Shown one piece after another: positions 5,095 through 18,465 of a stretch of 64,000 nucleotides of DNA (position 1 is its first letter; every line of letters starts with the position of its first letter). The translations under genes were made by a program, and so were the position numbers. This DNA is from Methanomassiliicoccales archaeon (lineage in GTDB: Archaea > Thermoplasmatota > Thermoplasmata > Methanomassiliicoccales > UBA472): contig JAPKYK010000003.1 in the NCBI GenBank assembly GCA_026394395.1, positions 324,547 to 388,546 on the forward strand, given 5' to 3'. The notes under the pieces were generated by a model, which saw only the letters and a list, made by a program, of their open reading frames with translations, was not told where the DNA came from and searched no databases.

Positions 5095-6387
5095 ATGGAG
5101 GGAGCTGGCCTGAACGAGATACCTCTCTATGTCCAGCAGATGCTCGAGACGCATCCGTGCTATAATGAGAAGGCACACAAGAGCTTTGCCCGCATGCACC
5201 TTCCGATCGCGCCCAGGTGCAACATCCAGTGCAACTATTGCAGCCGAAAGTATGATTGCATGAACGAATCTCGCCCTGGCGTTACCAGCGAGCTGCTCTC
5301 GCCCGAGGACGCGATAAACAAGATTCGCATAGTGAAGAAGAAGATACCCCAGCTGAGTGTGATCGGCATCGCTGGACCGGGGGACCCCCTGGCCAACGAG
5401 GAGACATTCACCACGCTGGAGATAGTGAAGCAGGAATTCCCGGAGCTGACGCTCTGCTTGAGCACCAATGGCTTGAACCTGCCGCGTTCCGTGGAGAGGC
5501 TGAAGGCATTGGGGGTCAAGTTCGTGACCGTTACCATAAACGCCGTGGACCCAGCGGTCGGCGAGAAGATGTATGATTTCGTCATCTGGGACGGTAAGGT
5601 CTTGCGAGGAAGGGAGGCCGCGGAAAGATTGCTCACCAATCAGCTGGAGGGCATTAAGATGTGCACCGACGCCGGCATCCTGGTGAAGGCGAACATCGTC
5701 ATGGTCCCGACGATTAATGCGGACCACATCCCTGAGATCGCGAAGAAGGTCAAAGAACTGGGAGCGTACATCGTAAACATCATTCCGCTGATACCGGTCC
5801 CTGGCACCAGGTTCGAGAAGATGCTGGCACCGACACCGGAACAAAGGAAGAACCTTCAGGACATGTGCGAAGGCGATATCCGCCAGATGCGCCACTGCCG
5901 CTTCTGCAGGGCCGATGCCATCGGGATGCTGGACATTGACCGTTCCGCCGAGTTCGCCCACATAACTTGTGGTGCTCGAGAGGCTCCGGAGGGCGGACCT
6001 ATCGGCATACAGATGGAAGGGCGGACAAAATACCGTGTGGCCGTGGCCTCATCTGACGGTAAGAACGTGGACCAGCACTTTGGCCAGGCCCGGGAGTTCC
6101 ATCTCTATGACGTTGAAGAGGGAAAGATGATCCTAGTGGGAAGGGTGCACACCAACCCATTCCTGGAGGAATCCATGTTCGGCGAGAAGCACCGCACCAA
6201 GATCGAGCGGATGGTCACCGCCCTGAAGGGCGCGGACATCGTTCTCACCTCCGGTTTCGGGGAAAGAGCGGAAGCGGAGATCAGGGCCAGAGGTATGCAG
6301 CCCTACCTGAAGGATGGTCCATTGGAGGATGCCGTACGCTGTGCCGTCTCCGACCTTTTCGAGCGGAGGGCACAGGTGTTCGAGTGA
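5095..6387 (+). CDS. nifB: NifB-type radical SAM protein with C-terminal NifX-like domain
   Basis: 430 residues. The N-terminal part has the radical SAM cluster motif in NifB form, APRCNIQCNYCSRKYDC (CxxxCxxC plus a further Cys, near residues 42-54), followed by GIAGPGDPLAN and LSTNGLNLP. HCRFCRADAIGMLD near residue 265 is the NifB-specific cysteine pair. The last ~100 residues (VAVASSDGKNVDQHFGQA onward) are the nitrogenase cofactor-carrier fold (NifX/NifY). NifB builds the NifB-co iron-sulfur-carbide precursor of FeMo-co. No nifHDK, nifE or nifN occur in the window. The gene is followed after 4 bp by an acetolactate-synthase-like gene, so they probably form one operon. NifB is common in archaea also without obvious nitrogenase neighbours, so nitrogen fixation cannot be concluded here. 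Confidence 0.9.
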   Translation: MEGAGLNEIPLYVQQMLETHPCYNEKAHKSFARMHLPIAPRCNIQCNYCSRKYDCMNESRPGVTSELLSPEDAINKIRIVKKKIPQLSVIGIAGPGDPLANEETFTTLEIVKQEFPELTLCLSTNGLNLPRSVERLKALGVKFVTVTINAVDPAVGEKMYDFVIWDGKVLRGREAAERLLTNQLEGIKMCTDAGILVKANIVMVPTINADHIPEIAKKVKELGAYIVNIIPLIPVPGTRFEKMLAPTPEQRKNLQDMCEGDIRQMRHCRFCRADAIGMLDIDRSAEFAHITCGAREAPEGGPIGIQMEGRTKYRVAVASSDGKNVDQHFGQAREFHLYDVEEGKMILVGRVHTNPFLEESMFGEKHRTKIERMVTALKGADIVLTSGFGERAEAEIRARGMQPYLKDGPLEDAVRCAVSDLFERRAQVFE

Positions 6388-6391
6388 TCAC

Positions 6392-7969
6392 ATGAAGGCG
6401 GCCAGGTTGCTCATCGATTGCCTTAGGAACGAGGGCGTCGACCGTATTTTCGGAATTCCCGGAGAGGAGAACCTGGACGTTATGGACGAGATCCATTCCT
6501 CCGGAATGGAGTTCGTGCTGACCCGTCATGAGCAGGCCGCGGCCTTTATGGCCGGGACGGTGGGACGCCTGACCGGACGCCCGGGGGTCTGCCTGAGCAC
6601 TTTAGGGCCCGGCGCCACAAACCTGGTGAGCGGCGTGGCTGACGCCTACCTGAGCAATATTCCTCTTATCGCTTTGGTCGCTCAGGCCGGAGAGACACGG
6701 CGCAATCCGCCGCAGAAGCAGGTGCTTGACCTGCTGTCCATCTACCGGCCTATGACCAAATTGTCGGTCAGCATCGACCGTCCCGACGACGTCCCTAAGG
6801 TCGTGGACCGGGCCTTTAAAACGGCGGTAAAGGAGAGGTCCGGACCGGTCATGGTGCAGCTACCGGAGGACGTCATGAAGATGTCGACGGACGCAACCCC
6901 TCGTAGATCAGGACCACTGAAACCGAGGAAGGCTGAGGAACGGGAACTAGAGGTCGTGGTAAATAACCTGCGTACCGCCAAAAAACCGCTCATGATCGTA
7001 GGGCACGGGGCACTTCGTAGTCAGGCTACGCATGAGATCAAGGAGCTATGCCATGCCTGGAACATTCCCGTCGCCTGCACCTGGATGGCAGCCGGGGCCG
7101 TTCCTTTCGACGACCTCCTATCGCTGGGAACCATCGGCATGCGCAACAGCGATCTGGTCAAGGAAAGTTATGATGAGGCAGACCTGGTGCTCTCTGTGGG
7201 ATATGACGTCACCGAGTTCCAGCCTCAATTCTGGAACAAGGGGACGAAGAAGAGGGTGCTGCACTTGGGGGATGGCAGTGCGGGACGGGCCAAGGATTTC
7301 TTCATGGACATCGAGGTCATCGGCGATCTGCGTTCCTCCCTCCAGGCTTTGACCGATGTGGCTTTTAGAAAAGAGGATTGGGCCTCGGCTCATCGCGATA
7401 AGCTGTTGATCGAACTGGAGAGGCCGGGAGAGGGGGCAAAGGGATTGGTACAAGCCTTGAGACGCCAACTGGGCCGGGGCGACGTCCTGGTCAGCGACGT
7501 GGGCGCCCACCTGATATGGCTGGCCAAGTATTACCCTGCCTACGCGGAGAATACCCTTCTACTGCAGAACGGGCTCATCTGCATGGGAGCGGCGCTCCCT
7601 TCGGCCATCGCTGCCAAGCTGGTCCACCCGGACCACAAGGTGGTGGCGGTGGTCGGGGACGGCGGCTTCCTCATGTCCTCGGCCGAACTGGAGACGGCCA
7701 GGAGACTGGGCTTGAAATTCGTCACCGTCATTTTCAACGATGGCGGACTGGGGCTCATCCGGGAGAAGATGCAGCGCAATCTGGGTCGCGTGTCCAACGT
7801 CGACCTCGGTTCGCCAGACATTCCCACCTATGCCCGCTCCTTCGGGGCGGAAGGATATACAGTGGCGGAGAAGGACTTCGAACCGGTCCTCCAGGATTGC
7901 CTGGAGCGGGACGTGCTTGCGGTCATCGATGTAAAGGTCGATTATTCGCACAATTGTCTCCTGTTCTGA
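6392..7969 (+). CDS. thiamine-diphosphate enzyme, acetolactate synthase large-subunit type (AlsS-like)
   Basis: 525 residues from the ATG at 6392, 4 bp after nifB. It has the three-domain layout of the family: N-terminal PYR domain with the catalytic glutamate region [14 protein letters not shown] and STLGPGATN, a central domain, and the PP domain with [19 protein letters not shown] ... FNDGG, which binds thiamine diphosphate and magnesium. The family condenses two pyruvates to 2-acetolactate. The HEQ-AAFMA and KLSVSI blocks look more like the catabolic AlsS form or pyruvate oxidase relatives than the biosynthetic IlvB. No small regulatory subunit (ilvN/H) follows. ilvD occurs 16 kb away, so a role in branched-chain amino acids is possible. 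Exact substrate is uncertain. Confidence 0.8.
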
Positions 7970-7978
7970 CGGATATGG

Positions 7979-7988
7979 ATTAAATATC
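7979..7988 (+). promoter_or_regulatory. TATA box before msrA
   Basis: ATTAAATATC lies 30-40 bp before the msrA ATG at 8019, so the transcript would have almost no leader. Sequence match only. Confidence 0.45.
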
Positions 7989-8018
7989 GGGCGCTGCCTG
8001 AATGGACCGAGGATACAG

Positions 8019-8495
8019 ATGCCGATCAAGAAGGCCACGTTCGCTGCCGGTTGCTTCTGGGGGGTGGAGGCGACCTTCCAGAAGGTTAAAGGAGTAGTGC
8101 AGACCGAGGTTGGGTACATGGGCGGGCACACTGAGGCCCCGACCTACCAGGACGTGTGCACGGACAGCACCGGGCACGCCGAGATGGTCCAAGTGACCTA
8201 CGATGACGAGCTGGTGAGCTACGCTCAGCTATTGGACATGTTCTGGGGCAGCCATGACCCCACACAAACGAATCACCAGGGACCGGACGTTGGTAAGCAA
8301 TACCGCACGGCCATATTCTATCACGATGAGGCCCAGCGGAAGGAGGCGGAGGCCTCGAAGGCCGCCCTGGACGGTTCCGGTCGCTTCAAGCGGCCGATCG
8401 CCACCAACCTGGAGAAGGCCGGGACGTTCTGGAGGGCCGAGGAGTACCATCAGAAATATTTGCAGAAGAAGGGGCTGGGCTCCTGCCACCTATGA
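8019..8495 (+). CDS. msrA: peptide-methionine (S)-S-oxide reductase MsrA
   Basis: 158 residues. The catalytic motif [10 protein letters not shown] is at residues 11-20, with the nucleophilic cysteine at 12. GYMGG and the [10 protein letters not shown] block, which in the family bind the substrate, follow, and the C-terminal part has [14 protein letters not shown]. The enzyme repairs oxidised methionine S-sulfoxide in proteins. The C-terminal Cys in LGSCHL is a candidate recycling cysteine. The gene has its own TATA box and is followed by alaS on the same strand with a separate promoter, so it is probably monocistronic. A peroxiredoxin at 21 kb also serves oxidative stress, but is not linked. 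Confidence 0.95.
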
Positions 8496-8543
8496 TCCAT
8501 GAGGTGTCCAGATACGCCTTCGTTCTCATAAATGACAATATTC

Positions 8544-8553
8544 TTATAACGAC
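8544..8553 (+). promoter_or_regulatory. TATA box before alaS
   Basis: TTCTTATAAC lies about 25 bp upstream of the alaS ATG at 8572, which implies a leaderless message. Confidence 0.5.
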
Positions 8554-8571
8554 CTCTGAATAACGCCAGTC

Positions 8572-11253
8572 ATGAGCGGCTCGGAGTTCGACCTAGCCTA
8601 CTTTAAGGAGAAGGGCTTCCATCGCAGACAGTGCCCCAAGTGCCAAAGGTACTTCTGGAGCTTGGGTGACTGGGAGACCTGCGGAGAGCCCCCGTGCGAG
8701 GAGTACACCTTCATCGGCCATTCCCCGATGAACCAGAAACTTAACCTGCACCAGATGCGCGAGGCCTACTTGGGCTTCTTCGAGGAGAACGGGCACGGCC
8801 GCGTGAAACGCTACCCTATCGTGGCCCGCTGGAGGGACGACGTCTTCTTCACTCAGGCATCCATATACGACTTCCAGCCCTGGGTGCTCAACGGCGTGAT
8901 AGAACCGCCCTTCAATCCCCTGACCATATCCCAGACCTGCGTGCGCTTCAACGACATCGACAACGTCGGGAAGACCGGCAGGCACTTCACCTTCTTTGAG
9001 ATGTGCGCTCACCACGCCTTCAACAAGAAGGACGGCAAGTTCATCTACTTCAAGGACCGCACAGTGGAGCTGTGCCACCGCTTCTTCAGCGAGCGCTTGG
9101 GAACGGACCCTAACAAGATGCGCTACATCGAGGAGTGGTGGGAGGGCGGCGGTAACGCCGGTCCCTGCGTGGAGGTCATCCTGGACGGGGTGGAGGTAGC
9201 TACGCTCGTCTTCATGATGTACCGCGAGACCCCGGAGGGACGCAAGCCCATGGAGATGACCGTGGTGGACACCGGCTACGGACTGGAGCGCATGACCTGG
9301 GTGTCCCAGGGTGTTTCCTCTGCATACGAAGCGGTGTTCGGGCCTGTGGTGGATTGGCTCAAGGAGCTGGCGGCGGTCACGCCGGACCAGACCGTGCTCA
9401 CCGAGTACAGCAAGGTGGCCGGGGCCACCAACATGAAGACCGCGGCCGATGTGCGGCGCATCCGGGAAACGACGGCGGAACGCATCGGCATCAGTTATGA
9501 CGAGCTGATGCGAACGGTCGCTCCCCTTGAAGATATCTACGTCATCTGCGACCATTCCCGGGCGCTGATGCTCATGCTCAACGACGGCGTCGTACCGTCC
9601 AACGTGCGCGAGGGCTACTTCGCCCGCATGCTGGTGCGGAGGGCGCTACGCTCCATACGCTCCTTGAACCTGGACATAAGGCTGTCCGAGGCGGTGAGCC
9701 GGCAGATCGACCACTTCCAGGACATCTTCCTGGAGCTCAAGGAGAATCGGGAGGACATTCTGAACTTAGTGCAGGTGGAGGAGGACCGCTACTTCGAGAC
9801 GCTAGGACGCGGAAAGCAGCTGGTGGGACGCCTGGTCAAGGACCTGAAGAAGGGCGATAAGCTGTCGGTGGAGAAGCTCATAGAGCTTTACGACTCCCAC
9901 GGACTTAACCCGGAGATAGCCAAGGAGTACGCCCCGGAGCAAATCGACGTTCCAGACAACTTCTATATGCAGGTGGCCGCGCGCCACGAGAAACCGGAGA
10001 CGGCGGCCGCGGCGGTGAAGGATCGGCCAGAGAGGATGCCGGAGACGCGCATGCTCTACTATGAGGACGCGGAGCTCACCGAGTTCGACGCCAAGGTCAT
10101 TGCGGAGATCGACGGCGGCATCGTCCTGGATCAGACGGCCTTTTATCCCGAGGGAGGAGGGCAGGAGTGGGACCTGGGCCTCTTGAACGGCAAGAGGGTC
10201 TGCAAGGTCATCAAGATCAAGACCACCATCGTGCACTTCGTGGAGGGCGGCAACCCCAAGATCGGGGCCACGGTCCACGGGAGCATCGACCTGGAAAGAA
10301 GACAGCAGCTTATGCGCCATCACACCGCGGCGCACCTGATCAACGGCGTCGCCAGGAACCTCTTCGGCAACCACGTGTGGCAGGCCGGGGCGCACAAGGC
10401 CGTGGACCAGGCCCGGCTGGATGTCACCCACTTCGAGAACCTCACCACCGAACAGCGGGACCTGCTGGAGAAGGAGGTCAACCGGGTGGTGCTGAAGGAC
10501 CTCCCCATCAACATCCAGTTCAAGCAGCGGGACGAGGCGGAGAAGCTGCACGGATACCGCCTGTACCAGGGCGGGGCCGTGCCTGGCAAGATCATCCGCG
10601 TGGTCGAAGTGCTCGGCCTGGACGCAGAGGCCTGCGGAGGGTTGCACTGCTCCCACACGGGAATGGTGGGTCTGGTACGCATCACGCGCACCAAGCGCAT
10701 ACAGGACGGAGTGGTGCGCATCGAGTACACCGCGGGAATGGCCGCCATCAATGGCATGCAGGCGGACAAGGGGCTGGTCGAGGAGCTGGGAGACCACCTG
10801 AACGTACCGGGAGAAAGGCTTCCCGGGGCGGTCCAGAAGCTGGAGGAGGAGCTCAAGGAGCAGCGCAAGAGGCTGGAACAGCTCTCGACCGTCATCAGCG
10901 AGCTGAGCGTGCGCGAGCTGGTGGCTTCCGCGCCAAAGGTCGGGGAGGTGCGCGTGGTGGTGCACGAGGCCCTGGCAGGCGAGGACCCCGAGGAGATGTC
11001 CAGGAAACTTGCTTCCATGCCCAAGACCGTGGCGGTCATCGGCGTGCGGGGCGAGAAGGCCAAGCTGCTGGTGGCCCGTTCCAACGATGTCGGGCTGGAT
11101 TGCCGCAAATCCCTGAAGACCATAATGACCATCATGGGGGGCGGCGGCGGTGGAAAGCCCGACTACGCCCAGGGAGGCGGCGGGGACCCGGAGCTTCTAC
11201 AGAAGGCCCTGGAGCAGGCCTTGGACCTCGTACGGCGGGACATGCAGGACTGA
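8572..11253 (+). CDS. alaS: alanyl-tRNA synthetase, archaeal type
   Basis: 893 residues, normal for archaeal AlaRS (about 900). The N-terminus carries the archaeal preamble with a CPKCQRYFW zinc-type cysteine pair, then the class II catalytic core: PIVARWRDDVFFTQASIYDFQPWV and TISQTCVRFNDI, and the motif-3 region DTGYGLERM. The editing domain shows RHHTAAHLINGVARNLFG with the HxxxH zinc ligands, and EACGGLHCSHTG with the Cys/His pair. The last ~200 residues are a coiled region followed by the glycine-rich C-Ala domain (GGGGGG). It charges tRNA-Ala; a tRNA-Ala gene with the G3:U70 identity pair lies at 23959-24032. Confidence 0.97.
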   Translation: MSGSEFDLAYFKEKGFHRRQCPKCQRYFWSLGDWETCGEPPCEEYTFIGHSPMNQKLNLHQMREAYLGFFEENGHGRVKRYPIVARWRDDVFFTQASIYDFQPWVLNGVIEPPFNPLTISQTCVRFNDIDNVGKTGRHFTFFEMCAHHAFNKKDGKFIYFKDRTVELCHRFFSERLGTDPNKMRYIEEWWEGGGNAGPCVEVILDGVEVATLVFMMYRETPEGRKPMEMTVVDTGYGLERMTWVSQGVSSAYEAVFGPVVDWLKELAAVTPDQTVLTEYSKVAGATNMKTAADVRRIRETTAERIGISYDELMRTVAPLEDIYVICDHSRALMLMLNDGVVPSNVREGYFARMLVRRALRSIRSLNLDIRLSEAVSRQIDHFQDIFLELKENREDILNLVQVEEDRYFETLGRGKQLVGRLVKDLKKGDKLSVEKLIELYDSHGLNPEIAKEYAPEQIDVPDNFYMQVAARHEKPETAAAAVKDRPERMPETRMLYYEDAELTEFDAKVIAEIDGGIVLDQTAFYPEGGGQEWDLGLLNGKRVCKVIKIKTTIVHFVEGGNPKIGATVHGSIDLERRQQLMRHHTAAHLINGVARNLFGNHVWQAGAHKAVDQARLDVTHFENLTTEQRDLLEKEVNRVVLKDLPINIQFKQRDEAEKLHGYRLYQGGAVPGKIIRVVEVLGLDAEACGGLHCSHTGMVGLVRITRTKRIQDGVVRIEYTAGMAAINGMQADKGLVEELGDHLNVPGERLPGAVQKLEEELKEQRKRLEQLSTVISELSVRELVASAPKVGEVRVVVHEALAGEDPEEMSRKLASMPKTVAVIGVRGEKAKLLVARSNDVGLDCRKSLKTIMTIMGGGGGGKPDYAQGGGGDPELLQKALEQALDLVRRDMQD

Positions 11254-11286
11254 AACCCCTTCCAACATCCCTTTTTCCGAGATAAT

Positions 11287-11469
11287 ACTTATATACAGGC
11301 TTAGGATTGGCTTGCTTGACAGAATCGATACTGTTGAAGGGATCCCTCTTAAGAGGGACCTGTTCCCGGACCGGTAGCCCTATCCGGAGATGGGAACTGC
11401 AAGACACGCGGTTTGGCGTGTGGCGCACTTCGCGAGGGCGAGACTCGATTCGCGATCATCAGCGAGGGA
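11287..11469 (+). promoter_or_regulatory. promoter and structured 5' leader of the rps13 operon
   Basis: A TATA box (TTATATAC, 11289-11296) is followed by some 150 bases that fold into four successive local hairpins before the rps13 ribosome-binding site GAGGGA (11464-11469): CCCTCTTAAGAGGG (11344-11357, fully palindromic); GTTCCC (11362-11367) with GGGAAC (11392-11397), enclosing CCGG (11371-11374) with CCGG (11384-11387); ACACGC (11404-11409) with GCGTGT (11416-11421); and TCGCGA (11430-11435) with TCGCGA (11450-11455). Most genes here have almost no leader, so a long hairpin-rich one is unusual. It could be an autogenous control site for a ribosomal protein or a short ncRNA. It does not fit tRNA, SRP RNA or RNase P RNA by eye. 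Confidence 0.55.
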
Positions 11470-11475
11470 TTGACT

Positions 11476-11985
11476 TTGGCTGAAGCGAAGAAGACTACCA
11501 GTACAGAAGAGAAGGACGACTTCCGGTACATTGTCCGTATAGTAAACACGGACATTGACGGCAAAAAGCCCACCGTGGTCGGCCTGCAGAGCATAAAAGG
11601 CGTGGGAAAGAGAGTGGCCGAGGTCGTGGTCCGGAAGGCCGGGGTAGACCGTTCAGTTAAGATCGGTTCCTTGGACGAGGCCGCCACTGACGAGCTGGCC
11701 AACCTTATCGCAACCTATTCCGATTACGCCCCCACCTGGGCCATCAACCGCCAGAACGACTACGAGACCGGAGAGGACCAGCACATCGTCGGTACCGATC
11801 TGGACATGGTTCTCAAAGACGACATCAACCGTCTGAAGATGATCAGGTGCTACCGCGGTGTGCGCCACGAGTCCGGACACAAGGTCCGCGGCCAGCGCAC
11901 CCGGTCCAACGGCAGGAAGGGATTGACCCTGGGCGTTTCCAAGGTCAGGCAAGCCCCCGCCGCCCCTGAAAAGAAGGAGGACTGA
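11476..11985 (+). CDS. rps13: 30S ribosomal protein S13 (uS13)
   Basis: 169 residues from a TTG at 11476, chosen because GAGGGA at 11464-11469 sits 6 bases upstream; a TTG at 11470 is the alternative, and an in-frame ATG at 11413 would fall inside the structured leader. The conserved uS13 features are YIVRIVNTDIDG, the helix-hairpin-helix GLQSIKGVGKRVAEVV, and the C-terminal basic tract CYRGVRHESGHKVRGQRTRSNGR (read in two parts), which lies at the subunit interface near tRNA. First gene of rps13-rps4-rps11-rpoD, a standard archaeal order. Confidence 0.93.
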   Translation: MAEAKKTTSTEEKDDFRYIVRIVNTDIDGKKPTVVGLQSIKGVGKRVAEVVVRKAGVDRSVKIGSLDEAATDELANLIATYSDYAPTWAINRQNDYETGEDQHIVGTDLDMVLKDDINRLKMIRCYRGVRHESGHKVRGQRTRSNGRKGLTLGVSKVRQAPAAPEKKED

Positions 11986-11987
11986 AG

Positions 11988-12674
11988 ATGGGAGATCCTA
12001 AGTTCCCGAGAAGGAGCTTCGACACTCCTTCCCACCCCTGGCAGGGCGAGCGCATAAAGGAGGAGGCCATATTGGTCAAGCAGTACGGCCTCAAGAACAA
12101 GAAGGAGCTGTGGAAGGCCAAGACCATCCTGCGGAACCTGCGCAAGCAGTCCCGTGACCTCCAGGCCCGCCTGAGGACCGGGGAGGAACAGGCCACGATG
12201 GAGGCCGAGAACCTGCTGCACAAGTGCGCTAGGATCGGACTGCTCCCGGCAGATGGGACCAAGCTGGACGATGTCCTGGGCCTTTCCGACCTGGCCTTGC
12301 TGGAACGCCGGCTGCAGACCATGGTCTTCGCCAAGGGACTGGCCTCCACCGTGGGCCAGGCCCGCCAGTTCATCGTTCACGGACACGTTTGCATCGATGA
12401 GCAGAAGATCACCATTCCCGGTTACATCGTCACCCGCGAGGACGAGGACAAGATCATGCTGAACCCGAGGTCCCCCATAGCCGACGAGATGCACCCGCTT
12501 AAGCAAGCCCAGAAGGAGGCCGCCAAGGAGAGGGAGAACAAGAAGGAGGCTGCCGAGTTCAAGAAGGACATGGCTCAGACGAAGTTCGTTAAGCACGTGC
12601 CCAAGGACGTCAAGGAAGCCGTCCAGGACGTTGAGGACGTCCCGGCCGAGCTGCCGACCGAGGAGGTGAACTGA
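11988..12674 (+). CDS. rps4: 30S ribosomal protein S4 (uS4)
   Basis: 228 residues. [18 protein letters not shown] is the typical archaeal N-terminus. The S4 RNA-binding domain is [29 protein letters not shown]. The C-terminus is a charged, alanine-glutamate-lysine rich tail that is longer than in many homologues (last ~60 residues). uS4 is a primary 16S-binding protein. It starts 2 bp after rps13 and its stop overlaps the rps11 start, so translation is coupled. Confidence 0.95.
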
Positions 12675-13057
12675 TGGGTAAGTGGGGTATCGCCAACGTA
12701 TTCGCCAGCTACAACAACATCATCATCACTTTGACCGATGTCACCGGTGCCGAGACCATAACCAAGTGCACTGGTGGAATGGTGGTCAAGGCGGCCAAGG
12801 ATGAGTCGTCCCCCTACGCAGCCATGAGGGCTGCGGAGAAGGTGGCCGAGATCGCCAAGGAAAAGGGTATCGAGGGCATCCACGTCAAGGTGCGCGCACC
12901 GGGCGGTAATCGCGCCACCTCCCCTGGACCGGGCGCTCAGGCCGCCATAAGGGCCTTGGCCCGTGCCGGCCTCAGGATCGGTCGCATTGAAGATGTTACC
13001 CCTATCCCCCACGACGGAACCAAGAAGAAGGGTGGACGCCGGGGCAGAAGGGTGTAA
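12674..13057 (+). CDS. rps11: 30S ribosomal protein S11 (uS11)
   Basis: 127 residues. [26 protein letters not shown] and [27 protein letters not shown] (both family signatures; shown in part) are present, and the tail [11 protein letters not shown] is the normal basic C-terminus. uS11 forms part of the small-subunit platform. Its ATG overlaps the rps4 stop by one base. Confidence 0.96.
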
Positions 13058-13069
13058 AGGGGCGCCTTT

Positions 13070-13912
13070 ATGCACATAAAGCTGATGAAGGACCAGGAGA
13101 CCGAGACCAGCATCAAGTTCGTGGTGAGCGATGCCAGTCCGGAGAAGGTCAACGCCCTGCGCCGGGCTCTCATCATGGACATCCCCAAGATGGCCATCGA
13201 TGACGTCGAGTTCCTGCTCGGCTCGATAAGGGATGAGGAAGGAAACGAGTACGAGAGCATCAGCCCGGTGTTCGACGAGATCGTGGCCCACCGCCTCGGC
13301 CTCGTTCCCATACCCACCGACCTTGAGCTTTTCGGTTTCCGTAAGAAGTGCTCCTGCGGCGGCGAGGGCTGCCCTAGCTGCACCATCTTGTACAAGCTGG
13401 AGAAACGCGGACCCTGTGAGGTCTATTCCGGGGACCTGGATTCCCTGGGCGGAGACGCTTATCGGCCCAAGGACGAGCTCATCCCCATCGTGCGCCTGGG
13501 CGATCGGCAGGGCATACTGGCCTACGCCACCGCCGAGCTGGGCACGGGAAGGATTCACGCCAAATGGCAGGCCACCCACGGAGTGGGCTACAAGTACATG
13601 CCCACGGTCACCATCGACCCGAAGAAGTGCGATAACGGCGGAAGCTGCATCGCGATCTGCCCCAAGCACGTCATGGCCTTCAAGGACAAGAAGGTGCAGG
13701 TAGTGGACAACAATGCCTGCATCCTCTGCAAGGATTGCGTGAAGGTCTGCCGCATCGGTGCCATATCCATCAAGGGCTCCGAGAACACCTTCATCTTCGA
13801 GTTCGAGACCGACGGCTCCCTGAGCGCCAGGGTCGCCCTGGTCAAGGCCCTCGAATCTTTGGAGCAGACCTTCGACGAGTTCCGCGAGAAGATCGCCTCC
13901 CTCGAAGGTTGA
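13070..13912 (+). CDS. rpo3: DNA-directed RNA polymerase subunit D (Rpo3) with ferredoxin domain
   Basis: 280 residues. The N-terminal dimerisation domain has VNALRRALIMDIPKMAID, as in bacterial alpha and eukaryotic Rpb3. A cysteine-rich loop CSCGGEGCPSC lies near residue 93. An inserted ferredoxin-like domain follows at about 180-235. Its second motif is complete (CILCKDCVKVC), but the first is CDNGGSCIAICP, where the second of the four usual cysteines is glycine. In ferredoxins this pattern gives a [3Fe-4S] rather than [4Fe-4S] cluster; here that is inference. Subunit D seeds assembly of RNA polymerase with subunit L. Last gene of the operon; rpl18e-rpl13-rps9, which often follow in archaea, are not here. 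Confidence 0.95.
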   Translation: MHIKLMKDQETETSIKFVVSDASPEKVNALRRALIMDIPKMAIDDVEFLLGSIRDEEGNEYESISPVFDEIVAHRLGLVPIPTDLELFGFRKKCSCGGEGCPSCTILYKLEKRGPCEVYSGDLDSLGGDAYRPKDELIPIVRLGDRQGILAYATAELGTGRIHAKWQATHGVGYKYMPTVTIDPKKCDNGGSCIAICPKHVMAFKDKKVQVVDNNACILCKDCVKVCRIGAISIKGSENTFIFEFETDGSLSARVALVKALESLEQTFDEFREKIASLEG

Positions 13913-13980
13913 AACGTTAGCAAGGCGGCAGTGCCCGCCATCCTTTCCATTTTTTCATTTGTCAATAGCGGACGGCATGC

Positions 13981-16900
13981 TCAGAAATCGTCCAGGCAGA
14001 TGGTCTTCTTGACCGGGGCGGCCGTTTCCTCCGTTAGCTCCTGGTCCTCCTCCGGGGCGTCGGGGTCCGATCTCGGCCAGATCTCCTCTGGACCCTCCTC
14101 CCCGCCTTCATCGAAGGAGTCCAATGTGGCCGCGCTCTCCTCCTTGCCGAATATGGAGATGATGGATTCCTCAATGAGACGGATGCGCTGCTGGGTGTAG
14201 TCGGAGACGGCGAAGTCCCGGCCTATCCTGCTGGTTACCTCGAGGTACTTCTTGACGCTGGCCTCGTAAACCGTCAGGTTCAGCTTGTGCCCGCAGTAGC
14301 AGTGGCCGCTGAGGGGCACCCGGCGATAGCTCTCACCGCACTTGGTGCAGCGGAACTTCTGCCCGGAGAAGCTGTTGAGGTTGCCGATAAGGTCAGGAAG
14401 GAAGTGCTTGGTGATGACCCTGGAAACGACATCCCCCTCGTCCACCGCCCTTATGCGCTTGGCCAGCTCCACCTGGGCTGTCATCTTGTCCATCATGGTC
14501 TCGAGGGTCTTGTAGGCCGATTCCGGCGGCCCTTCGGCGATGTCGTTGGTATCGTGGGTGATGCCGAAGCCCTCGTATTGCAGCAGGGACTTGATGCGCT
14601 CGGAGACCAGGTCCATGCGCCCTTGCACTTCCTTGGGATGTTTCATCTCCACGCTGGCCCGGTAGAACTCGAGGGGGTATTCCCAGAGCACGTCGATGTT
14701 CTGGGCCTCCTTGTCCACCTCGTTGGGGTCCAAGCGAATGCCCAGCACCAGAGGGGCGTCCATGAGCCCGCCCCGGCTGTCCGGAAGGTAGGAACGGGAG
14801 AAGTTGAGCAGACCGTCCAACAAAAGCACTACGCTGTCCTCGTCCCCGTCGGCGTTCCGCCTCTTGGCCGCGTGGAAGAAAGGGTGCCCGAAGCACACAC
14901 TGGCCCGAGTGAACCCGATCATGCGGCAAAGTATGCCGCCAGAGGTGTGGGGCGCCAGACCCATGGTCAGTTGTCCGATAAGGTCCTCCTTACTCTTGGC
15001 GTTGTAATATCTGGGCAGACCGTAGAACTTGTCCAGCAGGTCATCCACGAAATTGGAAACCCGCACCATGAAGTCCCCGCAGGAGATCGACGGAACGATG
15101 TCCTGGACCTTCAGCTCGCACAGCTGTTCGGGGTCGGTCAGGGGCTGGTCGTGCACGTCGAACTCGTATCCCAGCTCACGCGCTCTCTCCACGCTTAGTC
15201 CGATCTCCCGGGGCCGGAAATGGGTGAGCGGGACGTCGGTCAGGTCGAAGCGGATGGTGCCGTCCTTGTTGACGTAGATCTCGTGCTTGCGACGTAGGAT
15301 GCCCTTTTCCAGGGGCTCGGGGTTGAGGTCCTTGGACTTCAGCTCCTTCTCCCCTTTGAGCTTTGTTAATAGGCTCTTCTCACCCAAAGAGATGCGGGCC
15401 TGCTCCAGCATGTCCTTGACATCGAGGGATATCTCCTGGGCCTCGCCGATCGGTATCGTGTGCCCTCCACACGAGCAATTGTAATAGAGGTAAGGTTTGT
15501 TACCGCACTGTTCGCACTTCCTCACTCCCATCTTGACACTGATGGTCCCTTTCTCTGCGGCCTTCTCCATCAACCTCTGAGGACCGCCGGCCATGCCGAT
15601 GGGGAATATGGTGTGGGAGGGAGCCTTCATGCTACGGTCCTTGGCCTTCTCCGGACGGGCCATGCGCGAGCCTATCCTGGTCACCGAGCGAGGATTGACC
15701 CTGACCCCGGTGCACTTCGATACGACATCCATCACTGGAAGGTCTTCCATCTGGACCGAATCGATGATCTGGCCGTCGTGCAAAAGTCCTAGCCCGGCCA
15801 ACAATGGCAGGGAATATCTCTCCAGCACCACCTCTCCCTCGGTGACGGTGTGCAAGGCTCCCAGCAGTTCAAGGGTGCGCTTGGTCGCCACGTCGGCTGG
15901 TATGATGAGGTGTCCTCCTTCGAGCCGTCCGTTGGCCAGGACGAAGGCCCTCAGAGCCCTGAGCTCTGTGAGCGGAAGGTCGTACCAGAACAGGTTGTAC
16001 TTGGGATGGAGGGGGACGTTGTGCTTTTGGGACATGAGCCAGGCCGCCTGGAAGTCCCCAGGGTCCTCCCAGCCATCCGGAAGCTCGTCACCGCAGACCG
16101 CCCGCAGTTCCGCCCGGTGCCATTCCAGATCGTAATCCCCGGGCACCAGGATGTGATTGTTCTCCACGAACTCGCCGAATGGCAGCAGTATCTGCCCCAC
16201 GTCCACGATCTCCCTGACCTTTCCCTTGCAGGGGAGGAACTCCTCGACAGTGTTGGTCTGCACCAGATTGCCGTTCTCCAGCAGCAGTATCGGTCCCTCT
16301 AGACGGTCGCAGGGGGTCACCGCTCCAGCCTTGCCAGGCCTCTCCAGCTTGATCTGGGTGCCGATGGCCAGGAAGTTGTCCAGGGCATACATGGTGGCCG
16401 GGTTCAGGGCGATAGCTGCCAGGCCGGTGGTCCTCCCCCGTCCGTAGCGGAGGCGGAGGCCGCCGGGGCGGGAGGGGTGGCCGATGACCGGCCGTCCGGC
16501 CACGATGTCCTTGAGGTACTTGTAGTCCGGGACCACCTTGGGACCCTTGTCGTCCTTGCTGTCGCCCTTCTTCAGGCGCAAGTACTCGGTTATGAACTCC
16601 CAACCCTCCAGGCCGAGCTTCTTGACGTGCTTCTCAATCTTGGGGGCCTTGAGACATAGTCCTTCGGCGATGACCAGGCACACGCCCCCGCGCACGGAGT
16701 TGGTCTTGATCCGGGGCAGGTCGCGGAACCCGGATATCTCCTTGTCCTCGGTCTTCTCCCCGTCCACGCAGACCGGGCAATGGCTGTAGATGAGGTCGAT
16801 CTCCTCGTTGCTGGGGGTGTATTGAAGATGCTGGCATTGCTTGTACAGAGGTATCTCTTCTTTGAGACGCTCCACCTCTCCGCGGGTGGGCTGATAGGCC

Positions 16901-17430
16901 CCGATCCCGAACTCCCGGCGCACCACGTCAGCGATGAGCACGCTCATGGCCTGCGCAGTTCCCCCTGCGGACCGGATGGGGCCGTTGAAGAAAAGTGAGA
17001 GATACTCGGTGCCGTCCGTGTTCTGGTTGATCTTAACTCCGGCGATTCCCACGATCGGTGCGACCAGTATCCCTTCGGTGAGGACCGATAGACCCACGCG
17101 CACCGCCCTCTCGATAGCCAGTTCCCGGCCTTCCTGGTCGCCGATCGCCTCCAAGACCAGCTCCTTGGCGATGAGCAGGGAGACCTCCTCGCGGCTCTCG
17201 ATCCGCCGGGATATCTCCCTGATGCGCTCGGCCACGCCATCGACATGCCAGTCGGAGAGCTGCTTCTCCACCCGGTCCGCCAGGTCCTCGGCCGGTGGTA
17301 TCTCCACCTTCAGGCTGGGGTCCAACCCCCGGGAGCGCGCCTCAGTGGCCACGGCGTAGCAGCGCTCGTTCTCTCTGAACAGCTCAGAGAAATATCGGCG
17401 CATGGAATCGCTACAGGCCAGTTCTTGCAA
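13981..17430 (-). CDS. polC: DNA polymerase II (PolD) large subunit DP2
   Basis: 1149 residues, uninterrupted by an intein. The N-terminal domain RRYFSEL ... VEIPPAEDLADRVE is typical. The double-psi beta-barrel core holds LFFNGPIRSAGGTAQAMSV, and the zinc modules are visible as CEQCGNKPYLYYNCSC near residue 650 and CTKCGESYRRVPLSGHCYC near 1055. DP2 is the catalytic subunit of the archaeal replicative polymerase D; DP1 (exonuclease) is not in the window. The extreme C-terminus, after an acidic linker, is KKTICLDDF, which resembles a short PCNA-interacting box. The start used is a TTG at 17430, 31-38 bp below an AT-rich TATA-like element near 17461-17468; the ATG at 17403 is a real alternative. 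Confidence 0.96.
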   Translation of the reverse strand: MQELACSDSMRRYFSELFRENERCYAVATEARSRGLDPSLKVEIPPAEDLADRVEKQLSDWHVDGVAERIREISRRIESREEVSLLIAKELVLEAIGDQEGRELAIERAVRVGLSVLTEGILVAPIVGIAGVKINQNTDGTEYLSLFFNGPIRSAGGTAQAMSVLIADVVRREFGIGAYQPTRGEVERLKEEIPLYKQCQHLQYTPSNEEIDLIYSHCPVCVDGEKTEDKEISGFRDLPRIKTNSVRGGVCLVIAEGLCLKAPKIEKHVKKLGLEGWEFITEYLRLKKGDSKDDKGPKVVPDYKYLKDIVAGRPVIGHPSRPGGLRLRYGRGRTTGLAAIALNPATMYALDNFLAIGTQIKLERPGKAGAVTPCDRLEGPILLLENGNLVQTNTVEEFLPCKGKVREIVDVGQILLPFGEFVENNHILVPGDYDLEWHRAELRAVCGDELPDGWEDPGDFQAAWLMSQKHNVPLHPKYNLFWYDLPLTELRALRAFVLANGRLEGGHLIIPADVATKRTLELLGALHTVTEGEVVLERYSLPLLAGLGLLHDGQIIDSVQMEDLPVMDVVSKCTGVRVNPRSVTRIGSRMARPEKAKDRSMKAPSHTIFPIGMAGGPQRLMEKAAEKGTISVKMGVRKCEQCGNKPYLYYNCSCGGHTIPIGEAQEISLDVKDMLEQARISLGEKSLLTKLKGEKELKSKDLNPEPLEKGILRRKHEIYVNKDGTIRFDLTDVPLTHFRPREIGLSVERARELGYEFDVHDQPLTDPEQLCELKVQDIVPSISCGDFMVRVSNFVDDLLDKFYGLPRYYNAKSKEDLIGQLTMGLAPHTSGGILCRMIGFTRASVCFGHPFFHAAKRRNADGDEDSVVLLLDGLLNFSRSYLPDSRGGLMDAPLVLGIRLDPNEVDKEAQNIDVLWEYPLEFYRASVEMKHPKEVQGRMDLVSERIKSLLQYEGFGITHDTNDIAEGPPESAYKTLETMMDKMTAQVELAKRIRAVDEGDVVSRVITKHFLPDLIGNLNSFSGQKFRCTKCGESYRRVPLSGHCYCGHKLNLTVYEASVKKYLEVTSRIGRDFAVSDYTQQRIRLIEESIISIFGKEESAATLDSFDEGGEEGPEEIWPRSDPDAPEEDQELTEETAAPVKKTICLDDF

Positions 17431-17478
17431 AGAGCACCCCTTCTGGACTAAGGGAGGGGTGAATAAAAAACGTTTGCC

Positions 17479-18465
17479 TCAGAACAGCGCATCCGATTTC
17501 TCCAGAGGTTTGACCAATTGCAGCAAGGCGGTCATTACTTCGGGAACGCCCTCCCCGCTGGCCGCGCACATCTTGAGACGTTCGGAACCGGTGTTGATCA
17601 GGTCGACCTTGTTCTCCACTACCAGTATGGGCACGGCGGGGAACAGCTCACGGACGGCGTCCAGCAACCGGAGCTGCCCGTCCATGCCGTAACCGCAGGT
17701 CTCCGAGGGGTCCAAAATGAACAGAACGGCGTTGGCCAGGTGCTTGAGGGCGGTGACCGCCTGCATCTCGATGCGGTTGCGGTCGCTCAGCTCGCGGTCC
17801 AGCAGGCCGGGGGTGTCGATCACTTGGTAGCGGCGATAGCCCGCTTGGTGTATGCCCACCTCGATGCCCTTGGTGGTGAACGGATAGGCGGCCACGATCG
17901 GTTCGGCCGATGACACCTTCCTTAGGAACTGGCTCTTGCCGACGTTGGGAAAGCCGGCGATGACCATGGTGATCATGTTGTCGTCGAAATCGGGCACTTT
18001 CCGGAACTCGTCGCGGGCGTAGGCCAAGAACTTGAGGTCCGGAGCGACCTTTTTGACCACGGACGAGGCGCGACCGTAGAAGGCCTTGCGGGCGGTGTCG
18101 GCCGACTGCACCGACGAGGAGGTCATGACCTTGCTGGTGTACTGCTTCTGTAGCTCCTTGACCTTGTGGCCAGCCCAGTCCAGGTTGGAAAGCGCCTTCT
18201 TTAGCGGGTCGACGCCCACGGTGACCTCGATCATCTCGGCCAGGAAATCGTCGCGCTCGTTGATGCTGGGAAAAGCCTTGACGTACTTCTGTAAGGTGGA
18301 GGATATGACATCAGTGGCCGAAGCGATGCGAGCCATGGACTTGCGCTTGACCATGTCGGACTTCACCTGCCCCTCCTTATCTATCTTGTTTACCTTGCGG
18401 AAGGCCTTGTCAAGTATCTCCTCCGAGGTGAGAATGGTGGGAATGCGTTTCCTGAGATTGTGCAC
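17479..18465 (-). CDS. NOG1-family GTP-binding protein
   Basis: 328 residues. An N-terminal helical domain of about 160 residues (typical of NOG1) precedes the GTPase domain: G1 GFPNVGKS, G2 area YPFTTKGIEVG, G3 DTPGLLD, and G4 ENKVD (a variant of NKxD). The family works in assembly of the large ribosomal subunit in eukaryotes; the archaeal role is probably the same but this is inference. The minus-strand TATA box TTTATAAAG (18489-18497) lies about 25-30 bp above the ATG at 18465, indicating a leaderless message. It is followed by the DP2 gene on the same strand. Confidence 0.88.
   Translation of the reverse strand: MHNLRKRIPTILTSEEILDKAFRKVNKIDKEGQVKSDMVKRKSMARIASATDVISSTLQKYVKAFPSINERDDFLAEMIEVTVGVDPLKKALSNLDWAGHKVKELQKQYTSKVMTSSSVQSADTARKAFYGRASSVVKKVAPDLKFLAYARDEFRKVPDFDDNMITMVIAGFPNVGKSQFLRKVSSAEPIVAAYPFTTKGIEVGIHQAGYRRYQVIDTPGLLDRELSDRNRIEMQAVTALKHLANAVLFILDPSETCGYGMDGQLRLLDAVRELFPAVPILVVENKVDLINTGSERLKMCAASGEGVPEVMTALLQLVKPLEKSDALF

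Follow-up and report, generated by a model that had tools for sequence, protein, structure and literature searches.

Control of ribosomal-protein genes by leaders within their own mRNAs is common in bacteria and little documented in archaea. In Escherichia coli, the alpha operon is described as being repressed by one of its own products, uS4, through a pseudoknot at the ribosome-binding site (RBS) of the first cistron (PMC10931766). Among archaeal proteins, uL1 and L7Ae are described as repressing their own mRNAs by binding to them, their targets being an rRNA-like site or a kink-turn. The passages of Eckert and Weinberg (2020) cited here report four archaeal leaders (one for L4, one for eL15 and two for S15), and none of these belongs to the S13-S4-S11 operon (PMC7247131). 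A search of the open-licence literature returned no paper on an archaeal leader of the S13-S4-S11-rpoD operon.

The window analysed here is a stretch of 64,000 nt from a Methanomassiliicoccales archaeon (GCA_026394395.1, contig JAPKYK010000003.1, positions 324,547-388,546 of the forward strand); coordinates below are those of the window, and every feature given with coordinates lies on the plus strand. It contains an operon of four genes, each matched by an NCBIfam model above its cut-off: rps13 (uS13; 11476-11985; uS13_arch), which starts with TTG, rps4 (uS4; 11988-12674; uS4_arch), rps11 (uS11; 12674-13057; arch_S11P) and rpoD, which encodes RNA polymerase subunit D with a ferredoxin-like stretch (13070-13912; PRK00783). 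The alaS gene precedes rps13, and the gene for the DNA polymerase II large subunit follows rpoD on the opposite strand. The leader upstream of rps13 is a new and well-supported candidate for control of an operon that is orthologous to the bacterial alpha operon.

The comparison with the E. coli leader (Alpha_RBS) holds in several respects. Both operons open with the uS13 gene and go on to encode uS4, uS11 and a subunit of RNA polymerase, both leaders involve the RBS, and a pseudoknot is possible in the archaeal leader too. The two differ in that the archaeal leader has its four-way junction well ahead of the start codon, whereas the Alpha_RBS pseudoknot lies around the RBS; moreover, the archaeal gene order is S13-S4-S11-rpoD, uS4 is a putative ligand, and the archaeal leader has no counterpart in Rfam. 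A search of window positions 6000-18000 against Rfam gave no leader match at E<=5, and at E<=1 the corresponding loci of 20 relatives gave two tRNA matches and nothing else. Like the archaeal leaders of Eckert and Weinberg, as these appear in the passages cited, the leader is a predicted cis RNA before ribosomal-protein genes that was recognised from covariation and gene linkage, but the operons and lineages are different. Neither of the target types described for uL1 and L7Ae was recognised here, as judged by eye for the kink-turn and against 16S only for rRNA.

Parts and distribution of the leader

Positions ~11318-11475 most likely form the 5' UTR, or leader, of the rps13-rps4-rps11-rpoD mRNA, which comprises hairpin P0, the four-way junction, hairpin P5 and then the Shine-Dalgarno sequence (SD). 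A TATA-like promoter box (CTTATATA, 11288-11295) is present in the sequence and stands at equal spacing in 15 aligned sequences. About 18 bases past the box, at 11306-11313, the motif TTGGCTT/TTGCCTT is conserved, with unchanged spacing, across leaders of the same type; it could serve as a promoter or initiator element. P0 (ACAG..CTGT, 11318-11335) lies near the inferred transcription start. A longer covarying hairpin replaces P0 in three other genera, and for that reason the idea that P0 is a DNA operator was set aside.

The junction is closed by P1, whose 5' strand (11336-11339) reads GAAG here and GGAG in other genera, and whose 3' strand (CTTC, 11428-11431) has the SD as an alternative partner. 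Inside P1 lie P2 (11340-11361), with nine pairs between arms 11340-11348 and 11353-11361; P3 (11362-11397), with outer arms GTTCCC/GGGAAC (11362-11367/11392-11397), an internal loop GA/AGA and a CCCUAU apical loop; and P4 (11398-11427), in which an internal loop separates a 3-pair base from a 5-pair stem (arms 11405-11409/11416-11420). P5 (11432-11453, arms 11432-11436/11449-11453) follows the junction. Its position is taken by a different stable hairpin in other genera (5/5 members), and the P5 segment folded alone adopts another fold in three of ten members of the genus (G004, G006 and G008). The SD of rps13 (GAGGG, 11464-11468) is evident in the sequence and conserved in the genus. The four inverted repeats that a sequence-only reading had noted before the RBS are all present and correspond to P2, P3, P4 and P5; that reading was right about the hairpins but missed P0 and the closing stem P1, which unites three of the hairpins in one junction, so that the structure is larger than the reading had it.

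When 61 genomes were searched at the DNA level, all nine other genomes of the genus proved to carry the leader, at 82-90% identity, and shorter matches (E<=1e-5) turned up in four genomes from two other genera of the family. A pattern derived from the leader matched 11 stretches in a collection of 84,980 species. An S13 search gave a match in 132/147 genomes of the order, and the upstream sequence was read at 70 loci (L010-L079; L027 stops 36 bases short of its match). The carriers of the junction leader number 15 in four genera: all ten genomes of the genus of the window (g1), one of g2, one of g3 and three of g7. Over 400 genomes of the class, a covariance model of the leader (R1) gave 15 matches, one per genome. 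Comparison of coordinates with the S13 search places 14 of them directly before rps13, and the 15th (G331) is marginal (E=0.09). Linkage to rps13 is therefore exclusive among the 14, as looked for in a ribosomal-protein leader, which should occur in the 5' UTR of ribosomal-protein genes and nowhere else. One further genome, G002, carries the leader according to the DNA and S13 searches and is absent from the list of R1 matches, so that the family-wide count is 15/22 genomes (14 by R1, plus G002). By eye, the remaining seven carry a different, short leader there, and four of these belong to the R1 non-matches. The junction always lies ~30-45 bases upstream of the rps13 SD. Since R1 gives no second copy in any genome, a cis element is favoured, and the tie to a ribosomal-protein operon that had been suggested from the window alone is borne out by conservation before rps13 in 15 genomes.

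Covariation and sequence constraint

RNAalifold applied to the 15 sequences yields the four-way junction, with P1 closing it and P2, P3 and P4 inside. The junction (11336-11431) folds at -42.9 kcal/mol (z -3.05 versus shuffles), and the interval 11287-11469 has a z of -2.7 versus shuffles; this thermodynamic support is weaker than that from conservation in relatives and compensatory change. In the core alignment (A4), standard pairs occupy 98.3% of 480 cells and 17/32 pairs are changed on both sides, a level of pairing and change reached by none of 500 shuffles, and sliding one strand brings pairing down to 34-52%. Because kinship of the sequences inflates plain counts of both-side changes, a tree-aware null was used in which the inferred substitutions are redistributed along the tree. 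Against this null, 17 compensatory branch events were observed where the null averaged 0.9-1.3 and never exceeded 6 (0/2000), and canonical pairs stood at 98.3% compared with a null maximum of 92.7% (0/2000). Lack of compensatory changes in relatives had been named beforehand as what would refute the leader, and such changes are present. Our own per-pair test, run on 15 fairly similar sequences, finds 2/32 pairs at E<0.05 when limited to the structure, and no pair when all column pairs are considered. Since that test is thin, the pooled tree-aware test was relied on; a conserved RNA structure with compensatory changes, as looked for in a ribosomal-protein leader, is thus found when pairs are pooled and is weak pair by pair.

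The changes are spread unevenly over the stems of A4. P2 has both-side changes at 9/9 pairs, with 95.6% of its cells paired, and P4 has them at 5/8 pairs. In P1, all 60 of 60 cells are paired and one pair shows a compensatory change, the sequence being GAAG/CUUC in most of g1 and GGAG/CUCC in others. Compensatory change across genera touches two of the 11 pairs of P3. Covariation thus resides mostly in P2 and P4, and P3 is nearly invariant. Pairwise identity among the ten g1 genomes gives a similar picture. It is 100% in P3 and 97.9% in P0; the stretch running from P5 to the SD reaches 92.2%, P4 78.8% and P1-P2 72.1%. For comparison, the four-fold sites of rps13 have 62.7% and the sequence immediately ahead of the TATA box has 47.6%. 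The low identity of P2 and P4 with pairing kept is the behaviour of RNA stems. An invariant P3 points to a recognition site, and this hairpin, with its conserved internal and apical loops, is likely the recognition element. Kink-turn and bulged-G motifs were considered for the P3 internal loop and ruled out by eye.

A putative translational control and its alternatives

What is the mechanism by which the leader might act on the operon? The 3' strand of P1 together with the next two bases can form an alternative helix with the SD, CUUCGC/GCGAGG (11428-11433 with 11462-11467). Pairing of this kind, 4-6 bp long, is possible in 15/15 carriers, and both strands are altered between genus groups, with CUUCGC/GCGAGG in most of g1 and CUCC/GGAG or CACUCC/GGAGUG elsewhere; it is better than single-sequence shuffles (p<0.05) in only 8/15. 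When full leaders are folded with RNAfold, P1 is not always formed, its 3' strand binds the rps13 start in the window and several members of the genus, and mean SD pairing is 0.44-0.85. A candidate pseudoknot would join CCCU of the P3 loop (11378-11381) to AGGG (11435-11438). Both segments occur in 15/15, a fifth pair being G-C in ten, C-G in one and absent in four, and because the segments are nearly invariant they permit almost no test by covariation.

That the P1 3' strand can pair with either the junction or the SD in 15/15 suggests translational autoregulation, with control inferred to act at the SD. We read the conserved folded leader, with P0, the junction and P5, as a putative cis-acting ribosomal-protein leader through which a protein of the operon would lower translation, and we put the probability of this reading at roughly 0.7. 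An operon protein in excess over 16S rRNA would bind the invariant P3 and the junction region, and translation of rps13 and the genes coupled to it would fall. The likely expression platform is the P1 3' strand (CUUCGC; (CA)CUCC in other genera), which would either close the junction with GAAG/GGAG or hide the SD. The rps13 start may also be involved. Besides its start TTG at 11476, rps13 has a second in-frame TTG at 11470, and outside another family of the order (f2, probably Methanomethylophilaceae) the start is TTG in 41/43 loci (10/10 in the genus and 31/33 in others; loci L010-L064). It is ATG in f2 loci, one of which (L078) was scored TTG by script and ATG by eye. It is possible that the conserved weak TTG start is part of the translational control.

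The candidate ligand of first choice, by precedent only (PMC7247131, PMC10931766), is uS4, and otherwise uS13 or uS11 might serve. In the passages cited, Eckert and Weinberg regard prior ligands as the best predictor of a ligand, with caveats (PMC7247131). Mimicry of 16S rRNA was sought and discarded, as neither the junction, P3, P4 nor the leader aligned locally to the 4468-base 16S locus any better than shuffles did, and the best R1 score inside the 16S gene was 5.0 bits (E 2.8), which is no significant likeness. The motif CCGGAGA, seen by eye in both the leader and the 16S gene, was set aside. Likeness to 16S rRNA is described for some uS4 leaders and not for all, so it is not a strict requirement.

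The failure to find 16S mimicry would also fit a structured leader that binds no operon protein and has a general role, for instance in mRNA stability, ribosome loading or the response to growth rate or temperature, and Eckert and Weinberg, in the passages cited, allow that some cis RNAs of ribosomal genes may bind no ribosomal protein (PMC7247131). We consider such a role unlikely, as P3 is invariant far beyond what stem stability needs and R1 did not place the leader before any other gene. Near-invariant loops within a multi-helix junction, such as the internal and the apical loop of P3, are aptamer-like as well, and could belong to a riboswitch for a metabolite or ion whose targets happen to be ribosomal genes. 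Riboswitch classes usually precede several genes of one pathway, but this leader is present once per genome and, in 14 genomes, exclusively ahead of rps13, and Rfam offers no match even at E<=5, all of which makes a riboswitch quite improbable. A separate trans-acting ncRNA gene, in which case rps13 would depend on processed or read-through transcripts for its expression, had been raised in the sequence-only reading and would account for the TATA box of its own and the compact stable fold, but it is very improbable given that the RNA can pair with the SD, keeps its short distance from it, is found once per genome and nowhere but directly before rps13, and in sister lineages gives way to unrelated leaders rather than to relocated copies.

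Other leaders before rps13 in the order

A different four-way-junction leader is found ~10-110 bases upstream of rps13 in most of f2 (e.g., L020, L024, L036 and L076). In an alignment of 20 sequences, its closing stem CGUAAA/UUUACG, the 3' strand of which runs into the SD GGAGG, encloses two predicted hairpins and a third seen by eye. This alignment (A5) holds 20/27 f2 loci; six (L065, L066, L067, L073, L074 and L077) had no match to the regular expression, and L038 was omitted as a near copy of L036. The pooled tree-aware test gave 15 compensatory events versus a null maximum of 9 (0/2000), and the per-pair test 3/21 pairs at E<0.05 within the structure. A covariance model of this leader (R2) matched 51/400 genomes of the class, all of them f2 with one copy each, and coordinate comparison places 51/51 before rps13. 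At the thresholds used, R1 had no match in f2 and R2 none in the family of the window.

Unrelated structures at one gene are described as typical of ribosomal leaders (PMC7247131), and bacterial S15, L31 and S4 leaders suggest that one ribosomal protein may recognise unrelated folds. The two unrelated leaders of these sister families thus present a natural experiment on whether one ribosomal protein is served by two RNA folds in one order, and both are short and open to testing in vitro. Our broader proposal, which we advance tentatively and hold to be somewhat doubtful, is that this archaeal leader acts as a translational switch, in which one strand closes the junction or hides the SD under the control of an operon protein, and that unrelated leaders arose at least twice in the order.

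By eye, genera g4-g6, families f3 and f5 and most of f6 have a short stretch past the TATA box, often with GUAGGGGA...CUCC. The loci with this conserved stretch (L023, L042, L050-L053 and L055-L064) have it where the mRNA presumably begins, and the CUCC could, again by eye, pair with the SD. The short-hairpin pattern of other families was rejected as a general element, as it occurs in 27/147 genomes and mostly away from rps13. Upstream of rps13, loci L066, L073 and L074 have in common an approximate element CTGCAGCCG...TCTCAAA...TTTTGGTGCAG, for which Rfam gave no match in L066 and L073. The L066 element lies upstream of the TATA box, and thus it may be a separate RNA.
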